This document shows, piece after piece, positions 3,296-14,018 of a stretch of DNA of 64,000 nucleotides. The stretch is from Christiangramia crocea (GTDB taxonomy: Bacteria; Bacteroidota; Bacteroidia; Flavobacteriales; Flavobacteriaceae). Below the pieces are notes generated by a model. It was not told the origin of the DNA and ran no database searches. It saw only the letters and a program-made list of their open reading frames with translations. The stretch's first letter is position 1, and each line of letters starts with the position of its first letter. The DNA is taken from positions 62,001 to 126,000 of the forward strand of contig NZ_JAJSON010000025.1 of the NCBI RefSeq assembly GCF_022410465.1. Reading direction: 5' to 3'. The translations under genes and the position numbers were made by a program.

Positions 3296-3303
3296 TACAT
3301 TTG
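3296..3303 (+). promoter_or_regulatory. Putative -7 box (TACATTTG) of the E1 gene
   Basis: TACATTTG matches the Bacteroidota -7 consensus TAnnTTTG exactly. No convincing -33 TTTG was found 19-21 bp upstream. The box overlaps the TTG codon at 3301, which argues that translation begins at the in-frame ATG 3322. Confidence 0.4.
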
Positions 3304-3321
3304 AGTGATAAAAACTTTTTT

Positions 3322-5328
3322 ATGCTCTTCAGGAAAACAAAATCACGTGAGCTGGATTACTCAGATTTTCAAATATCTAACAGTAAAATGCTTGAGCTTT
3401 ATAAAGCGATGCTTAAGCCCAGAATGATAGAGGAGAAGATGCTTATACTCCTAAGGCAGGGTAAGGTGTCAAAGTGGTTCAGCGGTATCGGGCAGGAAGC
3501 GATTTCTATTGGCGTGACAGAGGCTATGAAAAAAGATGAATACATTCTGCCTATGCATCGTAACCTTGGAGTTTTTACAGCTAGAAACATTCCTTTAAAC
3601 CGGCTTTTTGCCCAGTGGCAGGGAAAAGCCTCCGGGTTTACAAAAGGGCGAGACCGTAGTTTTCATTTCGGGACACAGGAATATAAGATAGTTGGCATGA
3701 TCTCTCACCTGGGACCTCAGATGGGTGTCGCAGACGGGATTGCACTTGCACATAAACTAAGAAATGAAAATCTCCTGACGGCCGTGTTTACGGGAGAAGG
3801 GGGAACCAGCGAAGGCGATTTTCATGAAGCATTGAATATAGCCTCTGTCTGGGACCTTCCGGTTTTATTTTGTATCGAAAATAACGGCTACGGACTTTCA
3901 ACACCTACGCCTGAACAATACAGATGTAATGACCTGGCTGATCGTGGAGTGGGATATGGAATAGAATCACATATAATTGACGGTAATAATATTCTTGAGG
4001 TATATTCCCGGATTTTTGAAATAGCCGAAAGTATAAGGGAGAATCCCAGACCTGTATTAGTAGAGTTTAAGACCTTTAGAATGAGAGGTCATGAAGAAGC
4101 CAGTGGGACGAAATATGTACCGCAGGAATTGATGGATGAATGGCAGAAGAAAGATCCTATAATAAATTTCCAGAACTATCTTTTTGAAAAAGGAGTTCTG
4201 GATGATGAACAACTGGACCAATTCAGGCAGGATATTACCAGTGAAATAAATGAAAATCTTGAAAAGGCTTTCAATGAGCCCATGATTCAATCAACTGAAA
4301 CTGACGAGTTAAGTAATGTATTTCAAGAGTTTAAATATCAGTCACTTGAACCTCAATTTGAAAATGAAAATATCCGTTATATTGATGCGGTTTCACAGGC
4401 ATTAAGATCATCCATGGAAAGGCATGAAAACCTTGTTTTGATGGGACAGGATATTGCCGATTACGGAGGTGTTTTCAAAATAACCGAAGGCTTTATTGAC
4501 CAATTTGGAAAAGACAGGATAAGGAATACACCTATTTGTGAGTCGGCTATTGTGGGAACGGCGATGGGACTTTCAATAAATGGGATGAAAGCAATGGTGG
4601 AGATGCAGTTCAGTGATTTTGTAAGTTCCGGCTTTAATCCTATTGTGAACTATTTAGCCAAGGTAAATTACCGTTGGGATCAGAATGCCGATGTTGTTAT
4701 TCGAATGCCCTGTGGAGGAGGCGTAGGAGCCGGGCCTTTTCATAGCCAGACCAACGAAGCCTGGTTTACAAAAGTTCCGGGATTAAAAGTGGTTTATCCG
4801 GCCTTTCCGTATGATGCCAAAGGATTGCTGAACACCGCGTTTAATGACCCTAACCCGGTATTATTCTTTGAACATAAGGCGCTTTACAGGAGTATAAGAC
4901 AGGATGTGCCAGTAGACTATTATACCTTACCATTTGGAAAAGCCTCAAGAATAAGGGAAGGTAGTGAAGTAAGTATTATAACTTATGGAGCGGGGGTACA
5001 CTGGGCAATTAATACTCTTGATGAAATGGATTATCAAAATGCAGATCTTATCGACCTTCGTAGTCTGCAACCTTTGGATACTGATTGTATATGTGAATCT
5101 GTTATAAGAACGGGAAAGGCAATTATTTTAACCGAAGATTCTTTATTTGGCAGTCTGGCTTCTGAAATTGCAGCCATAATCTCTGAAAACTGTTTTGAAA
5201 GCCTGGATGCCCCTGTAATGAGGGTGGGCAGCCTGGAGACCCCTGTTCCATTTGCTGAAAATCTCGAAAAACAGTATCTCCCGCAGGAAAGGTTCAGGAA
5301 GAAACTCCAGGATTTAATAGAATATTAA
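3322..5328 (+). CDS. Fused E1 alpha-beta of branched-chain 2-oxoacid dehydrogenase
   Basis: This is a thiamine-diphosphate-dependent decarboxylase component of the branched-chain 2-oxoacid dehydrogenase complex, with alpha and beta subunits in one chain, as is common in Bacteroidota. Numbering from TTG 3301, the alpha half (about 30-330) carries the ThDP motif, GEGGTSEGD at 165-173 and ENN at 193-195. The beta half begins near residue 355 and has the GQDIADYGGVF segment. The frame is open from TTG 3301, but ATG 3322 (residue 8) is preferred because a -7 promoter box overlaps the TTG. It is monocistronic and divergent from the dioxygenase gene. Pyruvate or acetoin E1 paralogs are less likely given the fusion. 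Confidence 0.88.
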   Translation: MLFRKTKSRELDYSDFQISNSKMLELYKAMLKPRMIEEKMLILLRQGKVSKWFSGIGQEAISIGVTEAMKKDEYILPMHRNLGVFTARNIPLNRLFAQWQGKASGFTKGRDRSFHFGTQEYKIVGMISHLGPQMGVADGIALAHKLRNENLLTAVFTGEGGTSEGDFHEALNIASVWDLPVLFCIENNGYGLSTPTPEQYRCNDLADRGVGYGIESHIIDGNNILEVYSRIFEIAESIRENPRPVLVEFKTFRMRGHEEASGTKYVPQELMDEWQKKDPIINFQNYLFEKGVLDDEQLDQFRQDITSEINENLEKAFNEPMIQSTETDELSNVFQEFKYQSLEPQFENENIRYIDAVSQALRSSMERHENLVLMGQDIADYGGVFKITEGFIDQFGKDRIRNTPICESAIVGTAMGLSINGMKAMVEMQFSDFVSSGFNPIVNYLAKVNYRWDQNADVVIRMPCGGGVGAGPFHSQTNEAWFTKVPGLKVVYPAFPYDAKGLLNTAFNDPNPVLFFEHKALYRSIRQDVPVDYYTLPFGKASRIREGSEVSIITYGAGVHWAINTLDEMDYQNADLIDLRSLQPLDTDCICESVIRTGKAIILTEDSLFGSLASEIAAIISENCFESLDAPVMRVGSLETPVPFAENLEKQYLPQERFRKKLQDLIEY

Positions 5329-6904: not shown

Positions 6905-6924
6905 TAAAAAAATTTAATTCAGAG

Positions 6925-6955
6925 AAAAATCCCGGATTACTTCCGGGATTTTTTA
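6925..6955 (+). terminator. Intrinsic terminator after the OmpA-type lipoprotein
   Basis: A 12-bp stem (6925-6936 with 6942-6953) containing TCCCGGA/TCCGGGA and a 5-nt loop is followed by a T-run. It separates the lipoprotein operon from the polyketide operon. Confidence 0.8.
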
Positions 6956-6978: not shown

Positions 6979-8106
6979 GTGAAAAACACTCACGTCATAA
7001 TTATTGGAGGAGGACTGGCAGGACTCACTGCCGCGATTCATTTGTCACATAAGAATATTGAAGTGATCCTGATAGAGAAGGAAGGATATCCACATCATAA
7101 AGTTTGTGGTGAATATTTATCAAAAGAGGTGATCCCTTATCTGAATATGCTTGGGCTTGACCTGAATGCTCTTAACCCGGCTGAAATTAACCGACTGGAA
7201 TATTCTTCCCCGGCAGGAAGAACAACCCACTGCGATCTTGAATTGGGAGGCCTGGGTATTAGTCGGTACGCTCTGGATAATTACTTTTTTCGTCAAAGCA
7301 TTTCCCCACGATCTAAAATAATCCATGATCTTGTTACTGAAATAAGATTTGAAAATAACGAATTTCTTGTGAAGCTATCAGGGGGAAAAGAATTGAGATC
7401 TGATTTTGTTTTGGGAGCCTACGGAAAAAGATCAAATCTGGATAAAAAACTAAACAGGAAGTTTTTTGACCGGCTATCTGGCTGGCTGGCGGTTAAGGCC
7501 CATTATAAAAAAGACAGTTTCCCTGAAGACCTTGTATCCCTGCATAATTTCAATGGAGGTTATTGCGGACTTTCAAAAACCGAAAACGGGAGTGTAAATG
7601 CATGTTATCTGGCTACTTATAAAAGTTTCAAGCCGTACAGGAACACAGAAGAATATAAGGAGCAGGTGTTGATGAAGAACCCGTTATTACGCGACTTTTT
7701 TTTAAATTCTGAAATTTTGTTTGAAAAGGAGCTTAGTATTGCACAGGTTTCCTTTGATAAAAAGGATCTTTTAGAAGACCATATATTAATGCTTGGGGAT
7801 GCTGCCGGATTGATACATCCTTTATGTGGTAACGGGATGGCAATGGCCATTCATAGTGCCAAACTGGCTTCTGAAAATATCATTCAGTTCTATGAAAACA
7901 GGAATTTAAGCCGGTATAATGTGGAAACGAATTATCAGAATAACTGGAATCGTGAGTTTAAATCGAGGATAAAGGCCGGTAGACTTTTGCAAAAGATCCT
8001 TTTGAATAAACCCCTTTCTGAAATCACTCAGGGAATTGTAATGAATTTTCCGGCGGTTATGCCACATATCATAAGGAAAACCCATGGAAAGCCTATCTAT
8101 GTTTAA
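6979..8106 (+). CDS. FAD-dependent oxidoreductase (geranylgeranyl reductase/monooxygenase-like) of the type III PKS operon
   Basis: This 375-residue flavoprotein has the Rossmann FAD motif GGGLAG (10-15), the KVCGEYLS segment (41-48) typical of the FixC/geranylgeranyl-reductase branch, and the second FAD motif GDAAGLIHPLCGNG (273-286). The start is GTG 6979. It opens an eight-gene operon and overlaps the methyltransferase gene. In actinobacterial type III PKS clusters a flavin monooxygenase hydroxylates alkylresorcinols to quinols or quinones, and an analogous tailoring role here is inference. A reductase acting on polyene or isoprenoid double bonds is the main alternative. Confidence 0.8.
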   Translation: MKNTHVIIIGGGLAGLTAAIHLSHKNIEVILIEKEGYPHHKVCGEYLSKEVIPYLNMLGLDLNALNPAEINRLEYSSPAGRTTHCDLELGGLGISRYALDNYFFRQSISPRSKIIHDLVTEIRFENNEFLVKLSGGKELRSDFVLGAYGKRSNLDKKLNRKFFDRLSGWLAVKAHYKKDSFPEDLVSLHNFNGGYCGLSKTENGSVNACYLATYKSFKPYRNTEEYKEQVLMKNPLLRDFFLNSEILFEKELSIAQVSFDKKDLLEDHILMLGDAAGLIHPLCGNGMAMAIHSAKLASENIIQFYENRNLSRYNVETNYQNNWNREFKSRIKAGRLLQKILLNKPLSEITQGIVMNFPAVMPHIIRKTHGKPIYV

Positions 8107-8812
8107 GCTAAATACGTCCACCAGAACGGCAGAACGCGAGATCATGGACGATTTTGAACTTAGCGGATCTCAACTTAGGAAAACTCTTAAAGATCTGGAG
8201 AATATCAATTTTCTGTTGGGTGGGAACGCGATCACCAGGGATGGAATAAAAACTTTGCTGGAAGGTTTCTCAAAAAACAAGATTATCAGGATAGCTGATA
8301 TTGGATGCGGGAATGGAGCCATGATACGCAGCATTGCCGCCTGGGGAAAGAAGAGGGGGTACTATTTTCAATTTACCGGGATAGATGCAAATCTGCATGC
8401 AATACAGATCGCAGAAGAACTTTCCCTGGAATATCCGGAAACAGATTTTCTGAATCTTAATATCTTCAGTAATGAATTCCGGGAAATGAAATTCGATATC
8501 ATTTTATGTACCTTAACCCTTCATCATTTCAGGAATGAACAGATCATTGATTTGGTTAAGCAGTTAAATATTCAGGCCGGGATAGGAGTGGTTATAAATG
8601 ATCTTCACCGGAGTAAAATGGCTTATTTCTTATTTCAGGCATTCTGTTGGTTTTTTGTAAATAATGAGATCGCCAGGAAGGATGGGCTGGTATCTATCCT
8701 AAGAGGTTTTAAAAAGGAAGATATTGAGGAATTTTCCAGTCATATTCCAGCTGCTGAACATCATATACAATGGAAGTGGGCATTTAGATATCAATGGATC
8801 CTCAGTAAATAA
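8084..8812 (+). CDS. Class I SAM methyltransferase of the type III PKS operon
   Basis: This 242-residue methyltransferase has SAM motif I IADIGCGNGA (70-79), an acidic GIDAN loop after strand 2, and a motif-IV-like IILCTLTLHHF. Start ATG 8084 overlaps the flavoprotein gene by 23 nt; ATG 8099 (residue 6) is an alternative giving an 8-nt overlap. Position between flavoprotein and PKS suggests O- or C-methylation of the polyketide head group, as in the SrsABC-type clusters of Streptomyces, but substrate is inferred only from context. Confidence 0.82.
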   Translation: MESLSMFKLNTSTRTAEREIMDDFELSGSQLRKTLKDLENINFLLGGNAITRDGIKTLLEGFSKNKIIRIADIGCGNGAMIRSIAAWGKKRGYYFQFTGIDANLHAIQIAEELSLEYPETDFLNLNIFSNEFREMKFDIILCTLTLHHFRNEQIIDLVKQLNIQAGIGVVINDLHRSKMAYFLFQAFCWFFVNNEIARKDGLVSILRGFKKEDIEEFSSHIPAAEHHIQWKWAFRYQWILSK

Positions 8813-8826
8813 CTATACTAACTTTT

Positions 8827-9879
8827 ATGGGCGTAAAAATTGCAAGGGTAGAAAATGAATTGCCGGAATATTCCCGGAATACTGCAGATATCCTTCCTCT
8901 GGTTGATAACTGGCTTGGAGGGCAGGAAGAAAGATTCAGAAGAAAGGTATTGAAGATCTTTGAAGGAGCCGGAGTAGATAAGCGCTATTCGATCATGTCA
9001 CCTGAAGATGTATTCACGGCCACCTCATTTGAAGAGAAAAATAATATTTACGTAAGGGAAGTAAAGAAACTCGGAAAAAATGTCCTGACAAAGGCCCTGG
9101 GAAATTCGGGATGGTCAGCCGGATCGCTGGATTTTATCATTACGGTTAGTTGTACCGGGATTATGATACCTTCACTGGATGCCTATCTTATCAATGAACT
9201 TGGACTTAAACGGGATATCACGAGGCTTCCGGTAACCGAAATGGGATGTGCCGCCGGGATTTCAGGGATGATTTATGCTTATAATTTTCTAAAGGCCAAC
9301 CCGGGAAAAAGGGCGGCTGTGGTTGCTGTGGAAAGCCCTACCGCAACTTTCCAGCTTGAAGATTTCAGTATGGCAAATATGGTTAGCGCAGCGATCTTTG
9401 GTGATGGTGCCGCCTGCGTTCTGCTATCTTCAGAAGAAAATATTACAGGTCCCAGAATCCTGGGAGAGGAGATGTATCATTTTTACAATTCAACCCATTT
9501 GATGGGATTTGATCTTACGAATAATGGTCTTCAAATGATCCTGGACCCGGCCGTCCCGGAGACTATTTCAGAGCATTTCCCCGAGATCATTCATCCGTTC
9601 CTGGAAAAATACGGGACTTCAATCGAAAAGGTGGATCATTTAGTATTTCATCCGGGAGGACGTAAAATTGTTCAGACGGTTTCTGATCTTTTTGGTAACT
9701 TAGGAAAGAATATAGACGATACCCGGGAAGTTTTGCGCTTATACGGTAATATGAGCAGTGCAACGGTACTTTATGTTCTTGAGCGTTTTCTCAATAAAGA
9801 TATCCCTCAGGGAGATCAGGGGATCATGCTTAGTTTCGGACCCGGATTTTCGGCACAAAGAATTTTATTAGAATGGTAG
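8827..9879 (+). CDS. Type III polyketide synthase (chalcone synthase-like)
   Basis: This 350-residue thiolase-fold enzyme has the complete type III PKS triad: Cys141 in EMGCAAG, His275 in VFHPGGRKI and Asn308 in LYGNMSSA. The GFGPG-like loop appears as SFGPGFSA near the C-terminus (336-343). It would condense an acyl starter with malonyl units and cyclise the product to a resorcinol, pyrone or phloroglucinol. The gene overlaps the following SDR by 7 nt and sits among dedicated fatty-acid synthesis genes, so an acyl-ACP starter made by the operon is likely (inference). KASIII/FabH is excluded by the GNMSSA and HPGG context. Confidence 0.92.
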   Translation: MGVKIARVENELPEYSRNTADILPLVDNWLGGQEERFRRKVLKIFEGAGVDKRYSIMSPEDVFTATSFEEKNNIYVREVKKLGKNVLTKALGNSGWSAGSLDFIITVSCTGIMIPSLDAYLINELGLKRDITRLPVTEMGCAAGISGMIYAYNFLKANPGKRAAVVAVESPTATFQLEDFSMANMVSAAIFGDGAACVLLSSEENITGPRILGEEMYHFYNSTHLMGFDLTNNGLQMILDPAVPETISEHFPEIIHPFLEKYGTSIEKVDHLVFHPGGRKIVQTVSDLFGNLGKNIDDTREVLRLYGNMSSATVLYVLERFLNKDIPQGDQGIMLSFGPGFSAQRILLEW

Positions 9880-10667
9880 CAGAGTTCAAAGATCAGGATT
9901 ACTGGGCGCTTATCCTTGGAGGTAGTAGCGGCCTGGGTTATGCCAGCGCAAAGAAACTGGCAAAACATGGCATGAATATTATAATTGTTCATCGGGACAG
10001 GCGTTCCGAAATACCAGATATTGAGGATGCCTTTGATGAAATAAGAGCATCGGGAGTGAAGTTTGAAAGTTTCAATGCCGATGCTGTAAAAAAGGAAAGC
10101 AGGGAAGAGCTCATTGAAAAGATCAAAGATGTCCTTGGTGAAAAAGGAAAAATCAGGACCCTCCTGCATAGTATAGCCAAAGGAAACCTTAAGCCAATGA
10201 TCGGGGACGACCAGATCCTTGAAAATATAGATCTACAAATTACTATTGATGCCATGGCCCTGAGTTTATACGACTGGACGCAGGCAGTTTTCAGGAACAA
10301 GCTTTTTACTAAAGACGCCAGGATTATTTCATTTACTAGTGATGGAAATAAAAAAGCCTGGAAGAATTACGCAGCCGTTTCTGCTGCCAAGGTAACCCTG
10401 GAAGCTTTAACCCGAAGTATGGCTCTGGAGTTTGCCAGGCATGGAATAAGGGCCAATTGCATCCAGGCCGGGATTACGGTAACCCGATCTTTCCAGATGA
10501 TTCCTGGAAATGAGACCTTACGTGTACATGCCTTAAAACATAATCCATTTAGAAGGCTCACCGTCCCGGATGATGTCGCCAATGTCGTATATCTTTTAAG
10601 CAAGGACGAAGCGAGTTGGATCACGGGTACGATCATTCCGGTTAATGGAGGTGAACACCTTATGTAA
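9873..10667 (+). CDS. SDR enoyl-ACP reductase-like (FabL/FabI type)
   Basis: This 264-residue SDR has the nucleotide-binding motif GGSSGLG (16-22) and a catalytic pair Tyr166-x6-Lys173 (NYAAVSAAK). The YX6K spacing is that of enoyl-ACP reductases FabI/FabL rather than the YX3K of ketoreductases. The surrounding KNYAAVSAAKVTLEALTR and C-terminal GTIIPVNGG resemble Bacillus FabL. It would reduce a trans-2-enoyl-ACP in the operon's own chain-building module. It overlaps both neighbours (7 nt and 1 nt). A ketoreductase activity cannot be ruled out, and no separate KR is encoded in the operon. Confidence 0.78.
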   Translation: MVAEFKDQDYWALILGGSSGLGYASAKKLAKHGMNIIIVHRDRRSEIPDIEDAFDEIRASGVKFESFNADAVKKESREELIEKIKDVLGEKGKIRTLLHSIAKGNLKPMIGDDQILENIDLQITIDAMALSLYDWTQAVFRNKLFTKDARIISFTSDGNKKAWKNYAAVSAAKVTLEALTRSMALEFARHGIRANCIQAGITVTRSFQMIPGNETLRVHALKHNPFRRLTVPDDVANVVYLLSKDEASWITGTIIPVNGGEHLM

Positions 10668-11119
10668 TGCTGAAACCGGTGGATCAAAAATCTATTATCT
10701 CTCAATTACCCTATTCACAGCCTTTTTTATTTGTAGATGAAATTCTTGAAATAGATGAGAATTCAGTCACAGGTGAATATACTTTTTCTGCCGGGCAGGA
10801 ATTTTATAAAGGCCATTTTAAGGATAGTCCAATAACCCCGGGCGTAATTTTAACCGAATGTATGGCGCAGATAGGTGTTGTATGTCTTGGGATATTTCTT
10901 CTCAAGAAAAGTGATAGTGATTCTGAAAACCCAAAGATAGCCCTGTCATCATCAGAAGTAGAGTATTTCAAACCTGTGTACCCGGGTGAAACCGTAAAGG
11001 TGATTTCAGAAAAAATATACTTTAGATTCAATAAACTTAAATGCAAAGTGGAGATGTTCAGCAGCAAGGGAGAACTGATCTGTAAAGGTACTATTGCAGG
11101 AATGATGCTAACTAAATAG
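10667..11119 (+). CDS. FabZ-like 3-hydroxyacyl-ACP dehydratase
   Basis: This 150-residue hot-dog-fold protein carries the FabZ catalytic signature FYKGHFKDSPITPGVILTE, with His50 and Glu64 (TECMAQ) in the expected places. It would dehydrate 3-hydroxyacyl-ACP. Start and preceding stop overlap as TAATG, indicating translational coupling with the FabL-like gene. A housekeeping FabZ is expected elsewhere in the genome, so this copy is likely pathway-specific. Confidence 0.87.
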   Translation: MLKPVDQKSIISQLPYSQPFLFVDEILEIDENSVTGEYTFSAGQEFYKGHFKDSPITPGVILTECMAQIGVVCLGIFLLKKSDSDSENPKIALSSSEVEYFKPVYPGETVKVISEKIYFRFNKLKCKVEMFSSKGELICKGTIAGMMLTK

Positions 11120-11123
11120 AAAT

Positions 11124-12398
11124 ATGAGTAGTAGGGTTGTGATTACAGGAATGGGAGTTGCCGCGCCAAACGCAGTGGGTTTGCTGAATTTTGAACAAGC
11201 CCTGAGAAATGGCGAAAGTGGTATCCGGTTTTTTCCTGAACTTAAACAACTCAATTTTACCTGCCAGATAGGAGGGAAGCCCCAAATCCCTGAAGACCTT
11301 CTAAAAAAATATTTTACTCCACTGCAGCTAAAAGGACTCAATAGCAGCGGAATTATATATGGAGTTATCTCAGGTACCGATGCCTGGCAAGATGCCGGGC
11401 TTGAAATTGATGAAAATGCTCCTGCAGATTGGGATTCTGGGATCATCTTTGGTACGGGAATCCTGGGAACGGATAAATTCCGCGAGGCTATTCAGCTTAT
11501 AGATCAGGGAAAAACCCGCAGGTTGGGAAGTACAAGTGTGATACAGACCATGGCCAGTGGAATAAGCGCTTATCTGGGTGGAATCCTCGGCTGCGGAAAT
11601 CAGGTGACCACCAATTCGTCAGCCTGCACCACAGGAACTGAGGCTTTACTAATGGGATTTGAAAGAATAAGGTCCGGCCAGGCAGAACGAATGCTCGTTG
11701 GCAGTTGTGGTGATCATGGACCCTATGTCTGGGGTGGTTTTGATGCGATGAGAATACTTCCCGGTAAATATAATGAGAAGCCAGAAGAAGCTTCAAGACC
11801 GTTGAGTGCCTCAGCCACAGGTTTTGTTCCGGGCAGTGGTGCAGGGGCTCTGCTATTGGAAGATCTTGACTCAGCTGTTGGAAGGGGAGCGAAGATCTAT
11901 GCCGAAGTGCTGGGTGGTGAAATAAATAGCGGAGGCCAGAGGGGAGATGGAAGCATGACTGCTGCCAGTAATGAAGCCGTAGAAAGATGCATCACGCGGG
12001 CTTTGAAAAACTCCGGAATTTCTGCGGGAGAGATTGATGTTATAAATGGACATTTAACCGCCACAAACAGGGATTCTACAGAAATATTGAACTGGACCAG
12101 GGCTCTCGGAAGACGGGGGAATGAATTTCCTTTTATAAATTCCCTTAAAGGAATGACAGGGCACTGCCTTAGTGCTTCAGGCTCTATTGAATGTGTAGCC
12201 TCAGTTCTTCAGATGGAAAAGGGCTTTCTGTTTCCCAATATCAATTGTGAAGAGGTTCATCCTGAAATACAGGAGCTTATTAGCGAAGATAGAATTCCCA
12301 AGAAAAAGATCGATACGGAGATAAATATACTGGCAAAGGCAAGTTTTGGTTTTGGTGATGTAAATGCTGTTGCTATTTTTAAAAAATATACCCCTTAA
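11124..12398 (+). CDS. FabF-like beta-ketoacyl-ACP synthase
   Basis: This 424-residue elongating ketosynthase has nucleophile Cys168 (NSSACTTGTEAL), His310 (INGHLTAT), Lys342 (NSLKGMTGH) and His347. All catalytic residues are kept, but the usual HGTxT box reads HLTAT and the final box reads GHCLSASG, so the protein is divergent from housekeeping FabF. It would extend the acyl chain on the operon's ACP. It starts 4 nt after the FabZ-like gene. A chain-length-factor role is unlikely because the active-site Cys is present. Confidence 0.87.
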   Translation: MSSRVVITGMGVAAPNAVGLLNFEQALRNGESGIRFFPELKQLNFTCQIGGKPQIPEDLLKKYFTPLQLKGLNSSGIIYGVISGTDAWQDAGLEIDENAPADWDSGIIFGTGILGTDKFREAIQLIDQGKTRRLGSTSVIQTMASGISAYLGGILGCGNQVTTNSSACTTGTEALLMGFERIRSGQAERMLVGSCGDHGPYVWGGFDAMRILPGKYNEKPEEASRPLSASATGFVPGSGAGALLLEDLDSAVGRGAKIYAEVLGGEINSGGQRGDGSMTAASNEAVERCITRALKNSGISAGEIDVINGHLTATNRDSTEILNWTRALGRRGNEFPFINSLKGMTGHCLSASGSIECVASVLQMEKGFLFPNINCEEVHPEIQELISEDRIPKKKIDTEINILAKASFGFGDVNAVAIFKKYTP

Positions 12399-12407
12399 AT
12401 ATTCACT

Positions 12408-12662
12408 ATGAGCGAAAAAGATATCATAGACAGATTGAAGAAAATCGTAGAACCTTATGTTCAACGGATGGAAGGCCTTAAAAACTTTCAGGAGGAAACC
12501 GATTTTCTGAAGGATCTACAGATCAATTCGGCCAACCTTGTTGATGTTGTGCTGGATGTTGAAGATGAATTCGATATTGAGATAGATAACGATTCCATGG
12601 AAGGAATGCTCACTGTAGGAGATGCAAAGTCTATCATTCAGAGAAAAATATCAGGAAGATGA
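12408..12662 (+). CDS. Acyl carrier protein of the PKS operon
   Basis: This 84-residue acidic four-helix protein ends helix I/loop with FLKDLQINSANLVDVVLDVE, followed by EDEFDIEID. Ser41 is in the position of the phosphopantetheinylated serine, though the usual DSL/DSV is NSA here. It would carry the growing acyl chain between the ketosynthase, dehydratase and reductase and possibly hand it to the type III PKS. Its stop overlaps the PPTase start (ATGA), so carrier and modifying enzyme are translationally coupled. Confidence 0.88.
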   Translation: MSEKDIIDRLKKIVEPYVQRMEGLKNFQEETDFLKDLQINSANLVDVVLDVEDEFDIEIDNDSMEGMLTVGDAKSIIQRKISGR

Positions 12663-13219
12663 TTGGAAATGATATCATAGACCTGAAAGTTTCCCTGCCA
12701 GAAAGGAAATCTGAAAATTCCCGGTTTATGGATAAGGTTTTCAGTAAAAAGGAGAGAAGTTTCATTGAAAATTCTGAAGACGGGGAAATGATTCTATGGC
12801 TTATGTGGTCTATGAAAGAAGCGGCCTATAAGGCCCATCAAAGAAATTTCGGGTTATCAAGAGCTTTGAATCCTTTGTCTTTCAGCTGTGCATTAAACCT
12901 ATCAGAAAGGTCAGCCACGGTTCTTTGCGACAGGCATATTTATTCCATCGTATCGGAAGTTAAGTCACAATACATTCATAGTTATACCTGCAGGGAAGCG
13001 GTTTTTCAGAAGGTATTCGTTAAACCAGGTATGAACAAAGAGCATTTATTAGAAGAGATAGGAGCAGTGGTTAATCTGCATGGAACAGCCCTTCATATTG
13101 AAAAAGATAGCGAGGGAATCCCTTCTTTAAGCTTTCATAATTCAACTAAAAAATTGCCATTTTCCTTGAGTCATCACGGTAATTTTACAGCTTTGGCTAT
13201 TCCGTTAATTAACTGCTAA
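12659..13219 (+). CDS. 4'-phosphopantetheinyl transferase
   Basis: This 186-residue transferase has the two Mg/CoA-binding signatures of the AcpS/Sfp superfamily: MIGNDIIDL (Asp5) at the N-terminus and WSMKEAAYK (50-58, with the W-x2-KEA-x3-K pattern). It would transfer phosphopantetheine from CoA to the adjacent ACP. The length lies between AcpS (about 125) and Sfp (about 225). The 4-nt overlap with the ACP gene supports a dedicated pair. It is the last gene of the operon. Confidence 0.87.
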   Translation: MIGNDIIDLKVSLPERKSENSRFMDKVFSKKERSFIENSEDGEMILWLMWSMKEAAYKAHQRNFGLSRALNPLSFSCALNLSERSATVLCDRHIYSIVSEVKSQYIHSYTCREAVFQKVFVKPGMNKEHLLEEIGAVVNLHGTALHIEKDSEGIPSLSFHNSTKKLPFSLSHHGNFTALAIPLINC

Positions 13220-13301: not shown

Positions 13302-14018
13302 ATGAAGACAGTAGATAAAATGGAGGTGCTTCACAGCCAGTCGGCTGAGTTTATTGAGAAAGGTGAAACCGGGAAATTCCTGAAACTTATCCCGGATACT
13401 TTTATCATTAAAGGCGAGAAGGAAAATGGCGTTTTTAACCAGGGTTATGCGATCAGGCATCTTAACCGAAGGGATATGATCCTGATAGATGTAGTTGAAA
13501 AATCTTCAAAAAATGCAGTTAAAAAACTATTGGAGGAAGGCTACATAATAAAAGGTATCTTAATTACCTGTGATGCCATTCTAAAATCGGCTTATGCAGA
13601 TCTTAAAACAATCTCTGAAGATGCCGGTGGTGCACCAATCTATGCCCACCCGCGAAATAATTTTAAAGATGATTTTAAGACAAAAGATATAACCGGAAAG
13701 GATAAGGTACTGGATAGCTTTGATATTAACATCTTTGATCTTCCCGGAAATGAAGGCGCTTCGGTAGTTATATACTCTGATCTTAACGATGGAATGCTAT
13801 TTCCCGGTGAAGATGCTGTTGGCTCCGACTATGATTCAGAATTAAACACATTTATACGGCCTGAAAAAAAGAATGAAAATAATGATTACGGACTGGCGGA
13901 AAGCTGGGCGGCCTTTGATACCCCATTTACCTATCTTTTTCCAAGAAAAGGTAAACCCGGATTCAATCTTGAGGAAGGGCAACAAATAGATATAATAAAT
14001 AAACTGGGTAGAAGCTAA
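13302..14018 (+). CDS. Degenerate metallo-beta-lactamase-fold protein (probable pseudoenzyme)
   Basis: The 238-residue protein (ATG 13302; an upstream in-frame TTG overlaps the promoter) follows the MBL-fold layout: QGYAIRH and MILIDVVEKS strands, GILIT, then PIYAHPRN, LPGNEGASVVIYS and GMLFPGEDAVGS. Every metal-ligand position is altered: the HxHxDH region reads TCDAILKSAYADL (89-101), the PGH motif is PGN (148-150) and the GD motif is GE (169-170). It is therefore probably a non-hydrolytic relative with a binding or regulatory role. Assignment rests on pattern recognition; no membrane segment or signal peptide is seen. Confidence 0.55.
   Translation: MKTVDKMEVLHSQSAEFIEKGETGKFLKLIPDTFIIKGEKENGVFNQGYAIRHLNRRDMILIDVVEKSSKNAVKKLLEEGYIIKGILITCDAILKSAYADLKTISEDAGGAPIYAHPRNNFKDDFKTKDITGKDKVLDSFDINIFDLPGNEGASVVIYSDLNDGMLFPGEDAVGSDYDSELNTFIRPEKKNENNDYGLAESWAAFDTPFTYLFPRKGKPGFNLEEGQQIDIINKLGRS

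Follow-up and report, generated by a model that had tools for sequence, protein, structure and literature searches.

Known systems and the present locus

Several described systems resemble an eight-gene type III polyketide synthase (PKS) operon found at positions 6979-13219 of a 64,000-nucleotide stretch of Christiangramia crocea DNA (contig NZ_JAJSON010000025.1, positions 62,001 to 126,000; "the window" denotes this whole stretch). We conclude that this is a real, widespread, two-module lipid-polyketide operon, and the mechanism proposed for it below is likely. Statements on the literature follow excerpts of the cited papers. The Ars system of Azotobacter vinelandii, in which the fatty-acid synthase (FAS) ArsA and the type III PKSs ArsB and ArsC make alkylresorcinols and alkylpyrones, clusters its chain-building enzymes with the type III PKS, as does the operon, where dedicated genes for a ketosynthase (KS), a dehydratase (DH) and an acyl carrier protein (ACP) accompany the PKS. 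ArsB/ArsC, germicidin synthase and SCO7671 are reported to take over the acyl group from an ACP (PMC6274091), and the PKS of the operon would by extension do likewise. The two systems differ in that the chain enzymes of the operon are discrete type II proteins that include no ketoreductase (KR) or acyltransferase (AT), not a type I multidomain FAS, and in that the operon adds a 4'-phosphopantetheinyl transferase (PPTase), a flavoprotein and a methyltransferase.

The operon also resembles, in gene content, systems in which a single operon encodes a type III PKS together with an oxidoreductase and a methyltransferase. HidABC makes hierridins, and a prenyltransferase is an addition in one cyanobacterial cluster (PMC8086630); when expressed in a foreign host, PKSs of Planctomycetota operons produced pentadecyl- and heptadecylresorcinols (PMC10896814). 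A start from acyl-ACP has been proposed for HidC, and a related 'S. ferox' operon, probably of another phylum, also holds a gene for a lipid/isoprenoid-binding protein (PMC8086630, PMC10896814). Unlike the present operon, these systems are not mentioned in the excerpts of either paper as having a dedicated DH, KS, ACP or PPTase. The SrsABC/PkqABC genes of actinobacteria likewise encode a PKS, a methyltransferase and an oxidoreductase and make alkyl benzoquinones (PMC9927152), and the products of PkQ operons are reported electron carriers (PMC9927152, PMC5916927). By gene content the present operon matches this trio, as it does those of the hierridin and planctomycete operons, its oxidoreductase being FAD-dependent and its methyltransferase of class I, whereas the actinobacterial operon is described, in the excerpt of PMC9927152, as three genes without a chain module. 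In the cylindrocyclophane cluster (CylB ACP, CylD/CylH type I PKS, CylI type III PKS), an ACP-bound chain passes to a type III PKS (PMC8086630). That pathway differs from the operon in its elongation by type I PKS, its halogenation and its dimerisation. To our knowledge the cluster has no pair of flavoprotein and methyltransferase matching that of the operon.

Across 2,680 surveyed genomes of Flavobacteriaceae and their relatives, type III PKS clusters rank fourth in frequency among classes of biosynthetic cluster (10.74%; PMC10734526). The flavobacterial surveys, as excerpted, count such clusters and name no product (PMC10734526, PMC7440613, PMC9860996, PMC7477175, PMC6139392); one describes an Aquimarina family unlike any known cluster (PMC9860996) and another reports 69% identity between a type III PKS of Zobellia and a gene of Aequorivita (PMC6139392). 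An initial annotation of the DNA had stated that no product was characterised for this arrangement in Bacteroidota, and in the literature searched, which included few subscription papers, no such operon of Bacteroidota was linked to a product.

Gene content of the operon

The initial annotation had described the eight open reading frames as a tight operon; this was borne out, the coordinates being exact and the Pfam and NCBIfam assignments in agreement (Table 1). In order from FLV to PPT the genes are separated by -23, +14, -7, -1, +4, +9 and -4 bases, negative values denoting overlaps. A promoter scan returned 17 sites against 14.3 in shuffled sequence and hence no excess. All NCBIfam matches shown for the eight proteins fell below the curated cut-offs, which marks them as divergent family members; ACP had no Pfam match at 1e-3, and the NCBIfam ACP models likewise matched it below cut-off.

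Table 1. Operon genes and the preceding hairpin, with positions in the window
Feature	Position	Strand	Assignment
terminator-like hairpin	6924..6954	+	between upstream OmpA-family gene and operon
FLV	6979..8106	+	FAD-dependent oxidoreductase, geranylgeranyl-reductase/QhpG/aromatic-monooxygenase superfamily; putative head tailoring
MT	8084..8812	+	class I S-adenosylmethionine (SAM) methyltransferase, PRK06202-like (NF004851 126.4 bits, cut-off 243); putative head tailoring
PKS	8827..9879	+	type III polyketide synthase, Chal_sti_synt N and C; Cys141-His275-Asn308
SDR	9873..10667	+	FabL-like, enoyl-reductase-type short-chain dehydrogenase; Tyr166-x6-Lys173
DH	10667..11119	+	FabZ-like dehydratase
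KS	11124..12398	+	FabF/FabB-like condensing ketosynthase
ACP	12408..12662	+	dedicated acyl carrier protein
PPT	12659..13219	+	4'-phosphopantetheinyl transferase, ACPS superfamily

PKS belongs to the type III superfamily by its chalcone-synthase fold and its Cys-His-Asn triad, each residue of which is kept in at least 95% of 66 aligned rows. The same level of conservation holds for the Cys/His/His of KS (64 rows), the His/Glu of DH (61 rows) and the Ser within INSANLVD of ACP (58 rows), residues that we take, with those of PKS, to have the catalytic roles usual for these families. SDR has as its best match in the PDB the B. subtilis-type FabL 3oic, its NCBIfam score being below cut-off. A Tyr-x6-Lys spacing is the catalytic pattern of enoyl reductases, as opposed to Tyr-x3-Lys, and the corresponding Tyr and Lys of SDR are invariant (n = 54 sequences), which places it with the FabL type. 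Comparisons of fold with the PDB, here and below, are confined to the best 50 of 1000 chains. FLV resembles PltA in fold. The motif of flavin-dependent halogenases is WxWxIP; no W-x-W was seen by eye in FLV, and a search for WxWxIP as a DNA pattern, which is a weak way to look for a motif in a protein, gave four matches in the window against 2.1 expected, none of them in FLV.

Recurrence of the cassette and co-occurrence of its two modules

A sample of 249 Flavobacteriaceae genomes was searched with match thresholds of 1e-20 for PKS and 1e-100 for KS. PKS matches were present in 86 genomes; 85 of these matches were 59-82% identical, and that in G072, at 33%, was excluded as a member of another PKS clade from the set with the close PKS, which we term Form 1. 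KS was detected in 84 genomes, every one of which also carried PKS, giving 84 genomes with both genes, one with PKS alone, none with KS alone and 164 with neither (Fisher p ~1e-66, uncorrected for kinship). The PKS matches of one genome (G150:C1:841123-842162) are split over two neighbouring segments, as would result from an interrupted frame. A phylum-wide sample of 395 genomes contained PKS matches at 1e-20 in 174; among the matches listed, 33 were 66-100% identical, and the others, at 27-36%, represent other clades.

Eighty regions were fetched, 65 with a Form 1 PKS (62 from the 85 genomes above and three from other families) and 15 with other PKS clades. By tblastn, the 65 Form 1 loci contained FLV, MT and PKS without exception, KS and ACP in 63 loci each and DH in 62. 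SDR matched in 56 loci, one of which (L102) holds only a 25% match on the opposite strand, so that SDR is present in the cassette in 55 loci and absent from it in 10. PPTase, searched with one divergent query, was detected beside the cassette in 26 loci and undetected in 39. All eight genes were found in 19 of the 65 loci, and FLV, MT, PKS, DH, KS and ACP together in 62; the steady parts of the cassette are thus FLV-MT-PKS and DH-KS-ACP. Those genes that are present keep the same strand and order in all 65 loci, the recurrence beyond this genome on which the initial annotation had staked its reading, and median gaps between neighbours range from -4 to +3.5 bases across related loci, widening to 66 where SDR is missing. 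A single-genome or chance cluster is ruled out by this recurrence, the shared order, the tight gaps and the co-occurrence of PKS with KS.

The two modules are kept together even where they are no longer linked. FLV-MT-PKS-SDR lies in one place and DH-KS-ACP in another in G190 and G144 (356 kb away in the former, on another contig in the latter), and in Flavobacterium fluvii FLV-MT-PKS is separate from DH-KS-ACP-PPT. No other observation speaks as strongly for a single product of both modules as this joint retention without linkage in three genomes, which together with the co-occurrence in 84 of 85 genomes supports the proposal of the initial annotation that the PKS is tied to a dedicated module for building acyl-ACP.

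Related loci with a prenyltransferase

GTDB genomes were scanned with the FLV family, and the best 80 of 577 candidates were taken as loci, 20 of them with a Form 1 PKS, 51 with a different PKS (Form 2) and nine with no PKS in view; the set leans to Form 2 because a Form 2-like FLV headed the query rows, and at least one of its loci (L176) is already among the 65. Form 2 loci (UbiA - type III PKS - MT - FLV) share homologous FLV and MT with the operon and carry in place of the chain module a UbiA prenyltransferase, present in 44 of the 51 Form 2 loci and in none of the 20 or 65 Form 1 loci. Conversely, a KS of >50% identity occurs in 19 of the 20 Form 1 loci and in none of the 51 Form 2 loci, two of which have a 32%-identical KS within 10 kb; 14 of 15 Form 2 genomes searched lacked a KS of >37% identity at 1e-40. 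Spirosoma terrae carries both forms (loci L161 and L245), and one Form 2 locus (L219) comes from a Planctomycetota metagenome-assembled genome and could be contamination.

Median identities, compared for 25 Form 1 and 27 Form 2 loci, were 49.5% within Form 1, 47.7% within Form 2 and 41.4% between forms for FLV, and 43.2%, 44.2% and 30.9%, respectively, for MT; the values for PKS were 70.5%, 44.9% and 27.6%. A PKS tree of 50 rows placed Form 1 in one clade (support 100/99) and Form 2 in another (95/86), with long stems and a program warning. The tailoring pair is thus common to both forms, and the PKS and the source of the tail differ, as if the lipid tail were drawn from two sources, acyl or prenyl. 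The joining of related FLV and MT to a different type III PKS and UbiA in other Bacteroidota is new here. It is a tentative idea, which we hold to be unlikely on balance, that Bacteroidota have, besides menaquinone, a family of lipid quinones with polyketide heads that the two forms make up. FLV and MT would be constant in this family and the tail interchangeable, being either an acyl chain built on ACP and fed to one type III PKS (Form 1) or a prenyl chain that UbiA adds to the ring made by another (Form 2), and both products would act as redox or antioxidant lipids.

As a separate observation, nine of the 15 loci with other Bacteroidota PKS clades (L107-L111, L113-L115, L118) have in common a small neighbouring gene family, of which the one member examined is an ICMT-family methyltransferase.

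Proposed mechanism and alternatives

We favour, with a probability of roughly 0.55, a two-module operon in which PKS receives an acyl chain from ACP and forms a ring that oxidation and methylation turn into a phenolic or quinone lipid. PPTase would arm the dedicated ACP, on which KS and DH, with the FabL-like SDR and with housekeeping malonyl transferase, ketoreductase and/or enoyl reductase, would assemble an acyl chain distinguished by its length or saturation. This chain would pass from ACP to Cys141 of PKS, a transfer that we infer from the co-occurrence of the modules, and PKS would extend it with malonyl-CoA and cyclise it, most probably yielding an alkylresorcinol or resorcylic acid, a resorcinol being presumed over a pyrone. 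FLV would then oxidise and MT methylate the ring, perhaps in that order, and the end product would be a methylated phenolic or quinone lipid, probably residing in the membranes of the envelope. What is observed is the operon itself, its conserved catalytic residues, the co-occurrence of the modules and the presence, at other places in the genome, of separate genes for an ACP, a KS, a FabZ-domain protein and a PPTase. The last comprise an ACP gene adjoining a ketosynthase gene (contig C6), a 468-residue frame with a FabA/FabZ domain (contig C10), presumably an LpxC-FabZ fusion to judge by its length, and a second PPTase (contig C7); they indicate that the set in the operon is an extra one.

A number of observations weigh against this reading. 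The eight genes include no Tyr-x3-Lys ketoreductase, malonyl transferase or FabH, so that the chain module cannot work alone; given also the inconstancy of SDR and PPTase across loci, the view of the initial annotation that the operon is self-contained, with its own fatty-acid synthase, had to be given up. Locus L073 has no DH between SDR and KS. YceI genes lie near 23 of the 65 and four of the 20 Form 1 loci and near five of the 51 Form 2 loci (one query), a link to the cassette that is suggestive only given the shared synteny among loci, and no YceI gene stands beside the operon in this genome. G138 keeps PKS, yet a search of its assembly found no KS. At its locus (L237, G138:C62) SDR is followed by ~9 kb of intervening sequence, in which a 618-aa frame lies, and then by a shortened DH frame of 77 residues that stops 119 bases before the contig end; the genome represents either a true loss of the chain module or an assembly break. 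Finally, four of six planctomycete PKSs yielded products without their operon in a foreign host and two yielded none (excerpt of PMC10896814), so that a type III PKS can function without a chain module. The last two points would fit a PKS that takes acyl-CoA from elsewhere, with a chain module that is devoted to another lipid and only inherited along with it. We regard this as very unlikely, since the modules are retained jointly though unlinked in three genomes and KS never occurs without PKS among the 249 genomes; G138 is one exception among 85 and leaves the odds of the favoured mechanism unchanged.

The nature of the head group and the role of FLV bear on the same mechanism. Among solved enzymes PKS comes closest, by sequence as well as by fold, to M. 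tuberculosis PKS11, whose title names it as a maker of methyl-branched alkylpyrones (CylI is second by fold), and small active-site changes between ArsC and ArsB switch between pyrone and resorcinol (excerpt of PMC6274091). The corresponding marker, ArsB Trp281/ArsC Gly284, could not be placed on the operon PKS: the residue three before the catalytic His, which cannot be mapped to ArsB 281, is Leu in 23 of 25 and Met in two of 25 Form 1 PKSs, and Trp in 21, Phe in four and Tyr in two of 27 Form 2 PKSs. It is conceivable, if rather unlikely, that the same two modules make a long-chain alpha-pyrone, with MT and FLV methylating and oxidising the pyrone or the chain and no quinone being formed. 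The best NCBIfam match of FLV, below cut-off, is to the geranylgeranyl reductases, which act on tails and not on rings; the match is to this superfamily in both forms, and the UbiA-family protein that accompanies FLV in Form 2 has its best match in NCBIfam, far below cut-off, to chlorophyll synthase. Geranylgeranyl-reductase-type enzymes carry a KxCG motif, and FLV has a similar invariant H-x-V-C-G-E-Y (n = 46 sequences). FLV might on these grounds be a tail-saturating reductase (geranylgeranyl-reductase or MenJ-like) that, with SDR, reduces an unsaturated chain from the chain module, an alternative that we consider distinctly unlikely next to ring oxidation. The operon might also supply the resorcinol half of flexirubin pigments. 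This genome contains a flexirubin-type cluster ~51 kb upstream of the operon, outside the window (G000:C17:2200-18150, L241), with FlxA and FlxB above the NCBIfam cut-offs and, at 1e-100, no DarB match in the genome; the association of PKS with FlxA, which occur together in 33 genomes, is positive (odds ratio 3.9; p 2e-5, uncorrected for kinship), as is that with DarB (odds ratio 3.6). Yet 52 of the 85 PKS genomes lack FlxA and 60 lack DarB above cut-off (42 genomes were counted as having DarB, two of 44 being dropped as below cut-off), and PKS is no commoner where DarB is missing, being present in eight of 14 FlxA genomes without DarB and 25 of 42 with it (p = 1.0). Supply of flexirubins is therefore highly improbable, and as a general role unlikely and not supported by co-occurrence. 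Separately, 14 of the 56 FlxA genomes have no DarB above cut-off.

Genomic surroundings

The cassette lies within 10 kb of a gene for a fused 2-oxoacid dehydrogenase E1 in 44 of the 65 loci, and the window has such a fused alpha/beta gene at 3301-5328; it might supply primers or reflect mere synteny. At other loci the cassette follows fabH-accB-accC genes or stands amid unrelated neighbours. An MMPL transporter gene is nearby in six of the 65 and two of the 20 Form 1 loci and in none of the 51 Form 2 loci. Downstream of the operon, at 13302-14018, the window encodes a 238-aa protein that has no Pfam or NCBIfam match and recurs, within the 80 regions, only in L121, L125 and L137. Directly after the cassette in 17 of the 65 loci, most of them without a detected PPTase, is a family of ~143-aa proteins (e.g., L139:13457-13885), the examined member of which had no Pfam match.

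Significance

Flavobacteria rely on menaquinone. If the proposed mechanism is true, about one-third of Flavobacteriaceae would make an uncharacterised lipid, perhaps a second quinone, that has a chain-building apparatus to itself, and the natural splits between the modules, together with the alternative of prenyl and acyl tails, would offer a direct route to how type III PKSs obtain their starters.

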